From: Oscillatoriales cyanobacterium
GTDB taxonomy: Bacteria > Cyanobacteriota > Cyanobacteriia > CACIAM-69d
Reading direction: 5' to 3'
Assembly: GCA_004292515.1 (NCBI GenBank)
Contig: RDXB01000060.1
Coordinates: 1-64,000 of the forward strand
DNA: 64,000 nt
Shown piece after piece: positions 49,023 to 53,256 of this stretch (position 1 is the stretch's first letter; each line of letters starts with the position of its first letter). Under the pieces are notes generated by a model that saw only the letters and a list, made by a program, of their open reading frames with translations, had not been told where the DNA came from and ran no database searches. A program made the position numbers and the translations under genes.

Positions 49023-49547
49023 TCAGACCACGGGACTGCTGATAGTTTCTGGAGCGCAGTTATCAGACTGTTCGCAAGCGCCGATGCTAACCCAGTTGCT
49101 GGAGCCGTCGGCCCAGAATTCTTTTTTCCAAATCGGTGCATTGTGCTTGAGCTGGTCGATCGCGTAGCGACAAGCGTCAAAGGCTTCGGCCCGGTGGGGA
49201 GACCCGATCGCCACCAGCACGCTAATTTCCCCAATTCGCAACTTGCCAATGCGGTGGTGAATGGCCACCCGGTTCACAACGGGCCATTGCTGACGAATCT
49301 GAGCGGCGATTTGCTGGAAAATAGTGATCGCCATTGGCTCGTAGGCCTGGTAATCTAAGGCCACCACGGGTTTACCGTCTGTTTCTTGGCGCACAGTACC
49401 GTTCATCACCACGATCGCCCCATTGGCGGGATCATCCGCAAGGCGATAGACCGCATCGAGAGACAGCGGCGCAAACGTAATCGCAAACGAGTCGCGCGAG
49501 TCCGCTGCGGGCGTGGGCTTGGCCAGGGGGGAGGGCACGGACAGCAT
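49023..49547 (-). CDS. moaE: molybdopterin synthase catalytic subunit
   Basis: 174 residues. GAIVVMNGTVRQETDGKPVVALDYQAYEPMA, RVAIHHRIGKLRIGEISVLVAIGSPHRAEAFDACRYAIDQLK and the active-site lysines in PIWKKEFW are MoaE signatures. With MoaD it adds two sulfurs to precursor Z to give molybdopterin, needed by nitrate reductase. moaD is not adjacent. The Pro-rich first 15 residues may be non-conserved. The nitrate transporter lies 13 kb away. Confidence 0.95.
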   Translation of the reverse strand: MLSVPSPLAKPTPAADSRDSFAITFAPLSLDAVYRLADDPANGAIVVMNGTVRQETDGKPVVALDYQAYEPMAITIFQQIAAQIRQQWPVVNRVAIHHRIGKLRIGEISVLVAIGSPHRAEAFDACRYAIDQLKHNAPIWKKEFWADGSSNWVSIGACEQSDNCAPETISSPVV

Positions 49548-50000
49548 GGCTCTTGCTCAACAACTCATCTGAAACGGCGATCTCTGCTATCCTAACGCCT
49601 CATGCTAGGCGATCGACACCGTCCCAAACAGTCGAGATTCTTGGAATTTTGAGGAGCGATCATCAGTAATGTTAATCGTCCGTAAATCGCCCGTCAGAGG
49701 ATGTGTGATACCAGCTTCGATTACCAATGCCACGAATCCTGCGCTGAAACCCTTGTCAGATAGGAATTTTGAGTAGCATCAATCCACGAAATTGGTATGA
49801 GAAGCCAAAATTGATACTCTGTACGCCCCAGCCATCAACTAAAACTTGATACTCTGCGCGCCCCAGCCATCAACTAAAACAAGGGGCTTAAGCCCCTTGC
49901 CCCACAGCAGTTGATGCAACGATCGGTGCTTGGCAAGTGCTTCAGGACTTTTTGCAAATATCTTCGTGCGAAAAGTTAAAAGCCACTCCAATCTCTCAAT
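49548..50000. other. 453-base spacer with family B-type repeat
   Basis: Contains the 35-bp tandem pair and palindrome at 49811-49899. No protein or RNA gene was recognised in the rest. Confidence 0.5.
49811..49899. repeat. 35-bp tandem duplication joined to the 20-bp palindrome
   Basis: A 35-bp unit beginning ttgatactctgtacgcccc and ending catcaactaaaac is at 49811-49845 and again at 49846-49880 with two changes. It runs directly into the palindrome caaggggcttaagcccc-ttg (49880-49899). The unit resembles the left part of the 3671-3793 element (tgatactttgcacgcccc). Confidence 0.8.
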
Positions 50001-50231
50001 TTAATGCGTTGACTTGGATGCTGATTTTAGTTGAGCACAAGTTGCAAATCGAGTAACCATTCGTTGTGTAGGCACTTGACCGTCACAGGTCAAGGAATTA
50101 AGCGGTTGCCCAACAAAGTCATTGGTTTGACTGACTCGCATCATGGCAACAGGAAATGAGACAGAAAAGGCAACGAAAATTGCCACCCATCCCCCTACAC
50201 ACTTGTGCATCGTGATCATTGAGTCTTGCAT
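50001..50231 (-). CDS. small predicted exported/membrane protein, unknown
   Basis: 76 residues, ATG at 50231 with a good upstream gaggg ribosome binding site. One hydrophobic segment near residues 12-30 (CVGGWVAIFVAFSVSFPVAMM) looks like an anchor or uncleaved signal. The rest (about 45 residues) is polar with two cysteines (LTCDGQ and FATCAQL) that could form a disulfide. It lies 13 bases after the previous gene of the cluster. No family was recognised. The base composition is more AT-rich than the core genes around it. Confidence 0.55.
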   Translation of the reverse strand: MQDSMITMHKCVGGWVAIFVAFSVSFPVAMMRVSQTNDFVGQPLNSLTCDGQVPTQRMVTRFATCAQLKSASKSTH

Positions 50232-50244
50232 AATAAAACCCTCA

Positions 50245-50718
50245 TTACTGCAATGGGAGGTAAGGAAACAAGGGATGCCATGCCATGACAGTTGCTACCG
50301 TAAACAAGGTGAGCACCCAGAAGAACAGCGTCCTTGGTTTAATCTGTTTCCGTCGCAGACTCGGATAAAGAATTGCCAAACTAGCCAACCAACCGATGAG
50401 TAGCACCGTTTCCTTGCCGGCATAGCTACCAATATTGCCCCAGAGTGGATCAGTGTTGACACTGCCCGGGATCCAACTGCCTAATGAGCGTACGGCAGCT
50501 TCGCGGGCTTTTGATGTATCTGAAAGATGGTGTACAACCATCATGGCCACAGCCCCCACCCCGCCACTGATGAGGAAAGCGGCAGCAGAGCCATTCGTTG
50601 TGGGTGGATTCTGTGATCCTCTAGAGAGAGCTTGAGGAAATAGCTTTAGTTGCTTCCAAAGCTGGATGTAGAGTGGCAGTGATTTGTTCTCAATTCGAGA
50701 GGCAGAATTTTGCTTCAT
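50245..50718 (-). CDS. predicted membrane protein, unknown (157 residues)
   Basis: 157 residues, ATG at 50718. Three hydrophobic segments: about 45-65 (AAAFLISGGVGAVAMMVVHHL), 100-118 (KETVLLIGWLASLAILYPSL) and 130-150 (LFFWVLTLFTVATVMAWHPLF). Histidines sit at the membrane edges (VVHHL, MAWHPLF). No family was recognised. It follows the larger membrane protein gene by 49 bases and precedes the 76-residue gene by 13, so the three form a likely operon on the minus strand. Confidence 0.65.
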   Translation of the reverse strand: MKQNSASRIENKSLPLYIQLWKQLKLFPQALSRGSQNPPTTNGSAAAFLISGGVGAVAMMVVHHLSDTSKAREAAVRSLGSWIPGSVNTDPLWGNIGSYAGKETVLLIGWLASLAILYPSLRRKQIKPRTLFFWVLTLFTVATVMAWHPLFPYLPLQ

Positions 50719-50767
50719 AGCTGAAGGATATAGTCTTTGACTTTGCTAGATGTTGCTTCACCAGATG

Positions 50768-51403
50768 CTACAGAGCGTGAATCTTGGCAATTCCTAGACC
50801 TGTAACAAAGCCACCCATTGCAAAAAACATCATTGCCATCAAGCCAATCGAGGTGACAGCTAAAACGGGTCGATTTTGTTTTTCTAAAATGGAGTCGCCG
50901 TACTTCCATAGAATCCAGGTACATGCCACACCCAACGGCAAGGTAAACAGCACGGTGAATTCGTGATATTCCATGAACACGTATTGCGTTAAAGGTGAGT
51001 TTTCCTTCAGCCAAGCTCTGGCTCCACCAAAGTTTTCATCAGCTCGATAACGCATGTAGGCAAGATTGCCAGTCGCAATTCCTAATGCTGTGATGACCGT
51101 TGACCAAAATGTCAGCGATCGCATGTGAGGTAGGACTTTTGCAGAACCTCGTAATAGAGGAAAGGCTAGGTGACCCGCATAGGCGACAACCACGGTCGTT
51201 AGCATGGCTCCAATTCCGTGAATGAGGCCGAGCGATCGTTGCCATGGACTGGGATGGAGCAGGTTGACAAATGGCAGAAAGAGAAAGAGTCCGGCCGAAA
51301 GAATGGCTAGTCCATAGACAGCAACGGTGGCGATCTCTAACGTTTTTGGAAACTGAGGTGAGGTCGAGCCTGATACCCGTGAATCCGCATGTGGTTGATG
51401 CAT
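50768..51403 (-). CDS. predicted multi-helix membrane protein with conserved-looking histidines, unknown
   Basis: 211 residues from ATG at 51403, which has a ggag eight bases upstream (a GTG at 51412 is less likely). Five hydrophobic helices at about 22-44, 58-82, 95-112, 140-162 and 178-205. Histidines lie at helix ends: LIHGIGAML, AYAGHLAF, VLPHMRS, MEYHEFTV and a final KIHAL. That layout could bind one or two b-type haems, as in small cytochrome b-like membrane anchors, but this is inference only. First gene of a three-gene cluster of unknown role. Confidence 0.65.
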   Translation of the reverse strand: MHQPHADSRVSGSTSPQFPKTLEIATVAVYGLAILSAGLFLFLPFVNLLHPSPWQRSLGLIHGIGAMLTTVVVAYAGHLAFPLLRGSAKVLPHMRSLTFWSTVITALGIATGNLAYMRYRADENFGGARAWLKENSPLTQYVFMEYHEFTVLFTLPLGVACTWILWKYGDSILEKQNRPVLAVTSIGLMAMMFFAMGGFVTGLGIAKIHAL

Positions 51404-52176
51404 CAACAGCACTCCAGAGAAAAATTGGCAATAGTTATCTCCTGAGATGCCCCAATGAACTTGGGCATCTCAGGGCCACACGGCCTTGAGGAACATTCAG
51501 TAGCTCGCTAGATCTCTTGGGGCAATTCGCTAGAAGCTCTCAGCTCTTAACCCGTGCGCTTAAGATGAATGAGAGGCTAATGGACTTAGGGTTTGCAACG
51601 ATGCGTCCAGCCTAAATCAGTCCCCTTTTACCTTGCTGGAATAAGGATCTAGAGTTCGGGCTTGCTTGATGCAAAAGTCTTGTGTGACAGTGCTTAGGAG
51701 CAGGAGAGGTCAAGGGACTCTCTGCTGCATGGTTTTGAAGCCCTAGAAGTTGTTGCTAATTTATAGCATTAAGGAAGTGCTGTCAGTCTAGGCATTAGAT
51801 TTATTTTTCATAAAGAGTCGATCGACCAATACGCAGTTACGGTTCTTACCCCATCGAGTGGGCACAGTAGCCTGTAGGGTGTGCAATGCCCACTGACTAA
51901 CAGCTTCATCGCATCGGCAATATGCTGTACTAGTCGTTTGAGGGGAGGGCTGTGTGACGAGTTCCTAATGCGGCCATGAAAAGCCATTCACGGGACTGTG
52001 GTACCTGTTTTGGAGTCTGAAAGTCGGTCGCTGGAAGCCTAATGCCAAGCCGACTGACCCTGGGATCAAGGGAGGCGATCGCCCAAATCTGCCCAACGGC
52101 TCGCAAGATCCACGATCGCAAATATCATAGAAAGCGCCCTCTTGAAAACGCCCTCTTGATCGGCTTCCGTTGCGCC
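51404..52176. other. 773-base spacer between the membrane cluster and mnmA
   Basis: AT-richer than average. It has a short motif gggcacagtagcctgtaggg near 51858 that resembles dispersed intergenic sequence in cyanobacteria, and an 11-bp repeat cgccctcttga twice just before mnmA. No tRNA cloverleaf or gene was seen. Confidence 0.5.
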
Positions 52177-53256
52177 ATGAGCACCGCTTCTCTCGCTCCC
52201 AAGGTTGCTGTCGGCTTGTCCGGCGGCGTGGATAGTTCCACTACGGCTCTGTTGCTGAAGGAGCAGGGCTTTGATGTGTTGGGAGTCACCCTGTGGCTGA
52301 TGCGTGGCAAAGGCCAGTGCTGTTCTGAAGGGATGGTCGATGCAGCCCAACTTTGCGAAAAGCTAGGAATTGTCCATCATGTGGTGGACACGCGCGACAC
52401 TTTTGAAACCTACATCATTAATTATTTGGTTGAAGGCTACGAAAGCGGTACGACCCCGTTGCCTTGCTCCCAATGCAACCGCACGGTGAAGTTTGGCCCC
52501 ATGCTGCAATATGCGCGTCAGGAACTGGCGGCCGATCGCATTGCTACCGGTCACTACGCGCGCACGGCCTATGATCAGCAAACGGGTCGCCACCAATTGC
52601 TGCGCGCCCTCGATCGCAATAAAGACCAGTCCTATTTTTTGTATGACCTAGAGCAAGAGGTGCTGGGGGCCGTGATGTTCCCCTTGGGGGAATATGACAA
52701 GGCCCAAACCCGGGAGTTTGCCCGCCGCTTTGGGTTGCATGTGGCGGATAAACCCGAAAGCCAAGATCTGTGTCTGATTGAAGCCCACGGATCGATGCAG
52801 GCCTTTTTGGATAAGTACATTGCGCCCAAGGCTGGCGAAATTGTGGATCTGGATGGCAAGGTGCTGGGTCAGCATGAGGGCATTCACCACTACACGATCG
52901 GTCAGCGCAAGGGGCTGGGGGTGTCTGCGCCGGAGCCGTTGTATGTGGTGGCGCTGGATGCGAGTCGGAATCGAGTGGTGGTGGCGACACGCGATCGAGC
53001 CACGCGCCCGAGCTGCACCGTCAGCCGGGTGAATTGGGTGTCGATCGCGCCGCCGGCCGCGCCGCTTCCAGCGGAGGTGCAGATTCGGTATCGATCGCCT
53101 GCTGTGCCGGCCACGATTGTGCCGCTGGGGGAGGGCGATCGGGTCAAGATTGTTTTTGATGACCCACAATTCAGCGTGACCCCTGGCCAGGCGGCGGTTT
53201 GGTATCGCGGGGAAGTGCTGCTGGGCGGTGGAATTATCGATCGCTTTGATGACTAG
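52177..53256 (+). CDS. mnmA: tRNA-specific 2-thiouridylase
   Basis: 359 residues from ATG at 52177. The PP-loop [16 protein letters not shown] binds ATP. The catalytic cysteine is in [13 protein letters not shown] (residue 100 is the one placed like Cys102 of E. coli) and the second in [18 protein letters not shown] and [10 protein letters not shown] are further signatures. It thiolates U34 of tRNAs for Lys, Glu and Gln. The in-frame extension to 52042 is not conserved. Confidence 0.97.

Follow-up and report, generated by a model that had tools for sequence, protein, structure and literature searches.

The known proteins closest to B, one of the three described here, handle haem. The WWD family is defined by a four-helix core, a WWD loop and two periplasmic histidines (PMC10663686). 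W119 and R128 of CcmC and K842 of CcsBA are described as contacting or crosslinking haem (PMC9616876), and CcmF has been discussed as a haem-reducing cytochrome in its own right (PMC10663686). A further point of comparison is iron uptake of the Fet3-Ftr1 reductive type and by FtrABCD/EfeUOB. The yeast pair of multicopper oxidase and FTR1 works after a ferric reductase. Here we analyze a three-gene cassette, A-B-C, in which B shows a distant relation to the WWD core and whose copies recur beside iron genes.

Gene order, spread and acquisition

The cassette lies in a 64-kb stretch (the window) of contig C102 from the 3.98-Mb cyanobacterial genome G000. Its features are as follows.

50768..51403, minus strand: gene A, 211 aa, five predicted transmembrane (TM) helices
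50245..50718, minus strand: gene B, 157 aa, three predicted TM helices
50524..50532, minus strand: H63-H64-L65 of B (VVHHL), outer end of TM1; H64 in 24/24 members, H63 in 21/24
50407..50442, minus strand: WWD-like motif W-G-N-I-G-S-Y-A-G-K-E-T, B residues 93-104, outer loop before TM2
50275..50280, minus strand: W147-H148 of B, invariant in 24/24 members, P-His2-like position after the last core helix
50001..50231, minus strand: gene C, 76 aa, one TM helix, outward tail
49881..49897, minus strand: possible intrinsic terminator downstream of C, AGGGGCTTAAGCCCCTT then GTTTTAG; weak, as such sites are no commoner than in shuffles

A-B-C is a real operon. Coordinates and strand agree with an earlier note on this DNA, which had read three minus-strand genes with gaps of 49 bases (A to B) and 13 bases (B to C). 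Sigma-70 promoters were no more frequent in the window than in shuffles. Between moaE and gene C (window 49807-49876) lies a 35-base unit in two tandem copies that are 91% identical.

Bacterial species, each represented by one genome, were scanned with patterns from one sequence of A, which reach close relatives only; the 29 loci recovered are 66-87% identical and all come from cyanobacteria. B and C lie downstream of A in the same order and strand in every one. A profile search of 386 cyanobacterial genomes recovered 16 copies of intact A from 15 genomes, degraded A from another five and a single distant homologue; order and strand are again kept in 15/15 intact loci, three of which repeat the 29-locus set. 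In a 367-genome sample, B was present in exactly the 15 genomes with intact A and in none without, one of them (G191) carrying two copies each of A and B. With the window counted and the three twice-seen loci dropped, there are about 42 distinct copies, always ordered A-B-C. The earlier note had proposed a gene-neighbourhood survey as a check on co-occurrence, and the outcome is strict co-occurrence of the three genes in other genomes. Four of the five genomes with degraded A were checked, and none has B or C in the surrounding region (L071:7751-8279, L072, L073, L074).

Compared with the closest relative locus, L030, dN/dS is about 0.08 for A, 0.09 for B and 0.20 for C. A and B are under strong purifying selection, and the intact, conserved frames and low dN/dS exclude chance ORFs. 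We found no description of the cassette in an open-access subset of the literature, and plasmids searched as carriers of the trio gave no match.

The window genome probably acquired the unit, because two congeners lack the genes and GC3 among the longer window ORFs is lowest in A and B. In G033 and G045, the congeners in question, moaE and mnmA, which flank the trio in the window, adjoin each other with no trace of A-B-C between them, and A and B are absent elsewhere in both genomes. GC3 is 0.47, 0.51 and 0.40 in A, B and C versus 0.66-0.69 in four flanking genes; among the 42 window ORFs of at least 150 codons (mean 0.654, sd 0.055), the lowest two values are those of A and B. The AT-richer composition in the earlier note is thus seen, and the acquisition it suggested is likely, as a recent event, with congener absence as better support than its count of HIP1 sites: the deficit is there (1 site in about 2.4 kb of the trio region versus 92 in 64 kb) but lies within chance and is weak evidence. 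Identity of A to the copies at L002, L003 and L030 is 86-87%, against only 67-71% for MnmA of the same loci, a contrast that can be no more than supporting because A is well conserved everywhere. The site of the trio also carries an inversion, with mnmA inverted relative to moaE (window 49023-53256 versus L100 and L101 of the two congeners).

Proteins A, B and C and the WWD core

AlphaFold2 models of moderate confidence place five helices in A (20-49, 55-84, 91-119, 138-173, 175-210; mean pLDDT 74) and three in B (43-68, 102-121, 128-146; pLDDT 78), in agreement with the helix counts of the earlier note. The histidine motifs it had listed are all present, HGIG, AGHL, EYHEF and KIHAL in A and VVHHL and MAWHP in B. 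It had also recognized no known family, and indeed none of the three proteins matched a curated family over cut-off in Pfam or NCBIfam. Sequence searches of solved structures with A and B gave chance matches only. Foldseek returned no significant fold match for either model; the best for A was cytochrome c oxidase subunit III, which has a similar helix count but scores E 0.04 at best (TM 0.38-0.49) and has no sequence match to A.

The top Pfam match of B is PF01578 (Cytochrom_C_asm), with E 0.003 for the window protein and 17.6 bits against a curated cut-off of 29.9, hence below cut-off. Fourteen of 24 members match this family, also below cut-off (best E 4.2e-5), and the match is centred on W93-T104. 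In hhalign, B and CcsA align ungapped over 42 columns at 36% identity (P 0.004), with WGNIGSYAGKET of B set against WGSYWSWDPKET of the CcsA WWD loop. We also derived an independent WWD profile from 16 CcsA and CcmF-like sequences of cyanobacteria and searched it against 4,383 stop-to-stop frames, taken from the window and from every locus retrieved except those of CcsA. The best 72 frames were all B proteins, which are mutually related and count as one family match, and the first non-B frame scored E 0.41. When two B proteins were shuffled within helices and loops, 0/5,000 shuffles reached the score of either. Together, the profile search, shuffles and hhalign indicate a distant sequence relation of B to the WWD loop and the helix that follows it.

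The motif itself is strongly conserved, with G94, G97, Y99, K102, E103 and T104 in 24/24 members and W93 in 21/24. In our own residue mapping, W93 and K102 fall on CcmC W119 and on R128/CcsBA K842. Beyond the shared ungapped WG...KET loop and following helix, B resembles CcsA, CcmC and CcmF in its invariant histidine after the last helix. By position this H148 corresponds to P-His2 and may be a haem ligand. H64, at the outer end of TM1, is a candidate haem or metal ligand; it sits on a different helix from P-His1, which H62 or H147 of A could supply. Based on the positive-inside rule, we read H64, the WGNIGSYAGKET loop and W147-H148 as lying on the outer face.

B also differs from the family. 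W-x-W-D is replaced by G-S-Y-(A/T/S), in which the equivalents G97 and Y99 occur in 24/24 members, A, T or S stands at 100 and there is no aspartate; only W93, G94, K102, E103 and T104 of the wider motif are retained. B has three helices instead of a four-helix core in one chain, the position of its TM histidine is variable, and it scores below the curated cut-off. A and B are separate genes, the neighbours of the trio are iron genes rather than cytochrome c maturation genes, and a normal CcsA is encoded elsewhere in the window genome. Because the defining W-x-W-D is missing, B is not a family member; the comparisons support it as a divergent, minimal relative of the CcsA/CcmC/CcmF core. PF03239 (FTR1/EfeU) matched only 2/24 B members (best E 0.034) and no A.

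In A, H62, H78 and H147 are invariant in 24/24 members, R118, R120 and E145 are likewise invariant and E148 is near-invariant, whereas H209 of KIHAL occurs in 22/24. By the same positive-inside reading, H62, R118, R120, E145, H147 and E148 would lie on the outer face, with H78 the only invariant histidine at the inner side. Profile comparison found no relation of A to CcsA or to B. The histidines near helix ends recall the bis-haem four-helix cytochromes b (b561, NarI, FRE/YedZ type), but A has no Pfam match, H209 is not invariant, and H78 and H147 are absent from the distant homologue. We rejected A as a b561-like bis-haem protein, because two complete ligand pairs cannot be formed from its invariant histidines. 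The earlier note had guessed at haem b from edge histidines. The four-histidine pattern as such did not hold up, with H209 variable and only H62 kept in the distant homologue, but a haem link gains independent support from the WWD similarity of B.

That homologue, A', lies in G016, from another class of the phylum (L075:1189-1629, minus strand), and is about 36% identical to A over 95 residues. It keeps H62, R118, R120, E145 and E148 and lacks H78 and H147. A' is followed directly by a B-like frame, B', with GAYSGK (a weak B-profile match), which keeps GK and lacks KET and H148. Next comes a TPR protein of one span, whose CcmH/CycH-type match is weak and scores below TPR_1; the three span L075:304-1629 (minus strand). 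Within this class, a search for further A' homologues found only G016 itself. The G016 pair extends the A-B pairing and weakens mechanisms that need H78 or H147.

C has a conserved core, RVSQ..F.G...S, and a variable outward tail, short in most genomes and much longer in some. As CcmC is by CcmD, B is accompanied by a small one-span partner. The earlier picture of a small exported or anchored protein with two cysteines holds for the single span and outward tail; the cysteines number three, two of them in the exported tail, and as those two occur only in closer relatives of the window and are absent from most of the family, they do not stand as a functional feature. No CXXCH or other recognizable haem-acceptor motif is conserved in C. 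At L018 the tail ends in a peptidoglycan-binding domain (PG_binding_1). Long extra outward domains occur at L008, L010, L013-L015, L022, L026, L065, L067 and L069; that of L013 has no Pfam match.

Iron genes and other neighbours

Iron genes lie within 7 kb of the trio in 20 of about 42 copies. The neighbours include a ferritin-like gene (15), a two-domain multicopper oxidase (15), FTR1 permease (14), an HHH-motif lipoprotein (14) and IsiA (2, and also beside two degraded-A loci), with CbiMQO-type transporter genes beside 11 copies. Assuming a single FTR1 per genome, the number in G000, we estimate chance FTR1 adjacency at about 0.2% per locus. All 15 A-positive genomes carry the ferritin-like gene, versus 91/386 overall (P 1.5e-10, phylogeny ignored); counted by genus, it occurs in 7/7 versus 52/142 (P 7e-4). 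G000 has it, while its two congeners and a further member of their family lack both this gene and A. The multicopper oxidase is enriched and not obligate, occurring in 8/15 A-positive genomes versus 67/386. These results support a link of A-B-C to iron.

At the window copy itself, no iron genes and no RTX/HAF gene are adjacent. FTR1 is encoded elsewhere in the genome, unlinked to the trio, and the ferritin-like gene is on another contig, with native composition. A search upstream of A gave no consistent match to a Fur box. Near IsiA and an oxidase beside one A-B-C copy is a Crp-family-like regulator (L008:10869-11444), which may resemble the iron-stress regulator IdiB. Ferritin-like, FTR1 and IsiA genes still stand beside degraded A at L071 and L073.

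With a permease, a multicopper oxidase, a periplasmic lipoprotein and a ferritin-like protein as neighbours, the loci resemble Fet3-Ftr1-type reductive uptake and FtrABCD/EfeUOB. In contrast to the components of those systems, none of which A, B or C matches over cut-off in Pfam, A-B-C is accessory and often unlinked.

Another recurring neighbour, at 14 copies, is a secreted protein with RTX or HAF repeats (DUF3466). In Microcystis loci the gene for it, or what remains of that gene, separates A from B; a HAF-repeat PEP-CTERM protein or remnant is so placed at L016:3995-5182 and similarly at L009, L025 and L060, and in many further loci homologous RTX/HAF proteins come after C. Phytase was considered as the shared neighbour and set aside, since Pfam and sequence show the shared part to be RTX/HAF.

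Possible functions of the cassette

Our leading reading, held tentatively and at somewhat less than an even chance, is that A-B-C encodes a membrane complex that has a haem site on its outer face and works in iron acquisition or homeostasis, probably through a ferric-reductase-like electron-transfer step. The horizontally moving cyanobacterial operon would specify a small inner-membrane complex. In it, B would turn H64, H148 and the WG...KET outer loop towards the periplasm; A, the five-helix partner, would add H62, R118, R120, E145 and H147 on the outer face; and C, an anchor with one span and a periplasmic tail, would take the place that CcmD has next to CcmC. A and B would most likely hold haem at the outer face, a bare metal ion being less likely, and the probable electron-transfer step would lie upstream of the ferroxidase-type oxidase and FTR1 permease that are neighbours in other genomes. 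We propose this role because those neighbours are a multicopper oxidase and FTR1 and because CcmF, with the same core, is discussed as a haem-containing reductase, which offers by analogy a precedent for redox use of the WWD core. Complex formation, haem binding and electron transfer by A-B are what we infer. In a bolder version, which we consider doubtful, A and B form a split minimal haem-handling core outside cytochrome c maturation that reduces ferric iron and completes a reductase-ferroxidase-FTR1 uptake route.

Several observations count against the leading reading. B is below the PF01578 cut-off, lacks W-x-W-D and has three helices; neither A nor B has a significant Foldseek match, and their models are of moderate confidence; 7/15 A-positive genomes lack the oxidase, the window copy has no iron genes and there is no consistent Fur box; the recurrent RTX/HAF neighbour is left unexplained; and the G016 pair keeps only H62 of the histidines of A, with KET and H148 missing from B'. 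Of the two main rivals, the first, which we consider unlikely, has A-B carry or present haem at the outer face for transfer to a partner in the periplasm or at the surface, comparable to the transfer from CcmC to CcmE; the C tail, the RTX/HAF protein or some unknown cytochrome could be this partner. Known haem-handling proteins move and attach haem (PMC10663686), C resembles CcmD and CcmE in having one span and an outward part, and the TPR protein after A'-B' has its weak CcmH/CycH-type match; yet C conserves no haem-acceptor motif, the TPR match is generic, a normal CcsA is encoded elsewhere in the genome and the neighbours point to inorganic iron.

The neighbouring permeases, multicopper oxidase and ferritin, with CbiMQO beside 11 copies, would also suit a non-haem accessory to metal transport or sensing, in which a His/Glu/Arg cluster on the outer face binds a divalent ion, iron or another, in aid of FTR1 or CbiMQO permeases. 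Even A' retains E145, E148, R118 and R120, but the WWD-like motif and profile match of B go unaccounted for and FTR1 and ferritin of the window genome are unlinked; we judge this second main rival improbable. A long shot is an envelope module unrelated to iron, for secretion or display of the RTX/HAF-repeat (DUF3466, PEP-CTERM) protein, with the iron neighbours reflecting shared genomic islands. The 14 copies with that protein or a remnant near C or between A and B fit such a module, but iron neighbours recur in diverse families and different arrangements and the ferritin-like gene is in every A-positive genome. That the ORFs are spurious, or decaying DNA without function, is already refuted by conservation to near certainty: degraded A in five other genomes would fit it, but the frames are intact in about 42 copies and purifying selection is strong.

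Cyanobacteria have a high demand for iron, and how electrons reach iron uptake at the membrane is understood only in part. As a conserved trio that moves horizontally and is tied to ferritin, FTR1 and multicopper-oxidase genes, A-B-C is a concrete candidate for knock-out. Should B bind haem without the WWD tryptophans, this would reveal how small a part of the haem-handling core suffices, and that the core has uses besides cytochrome c assembly.
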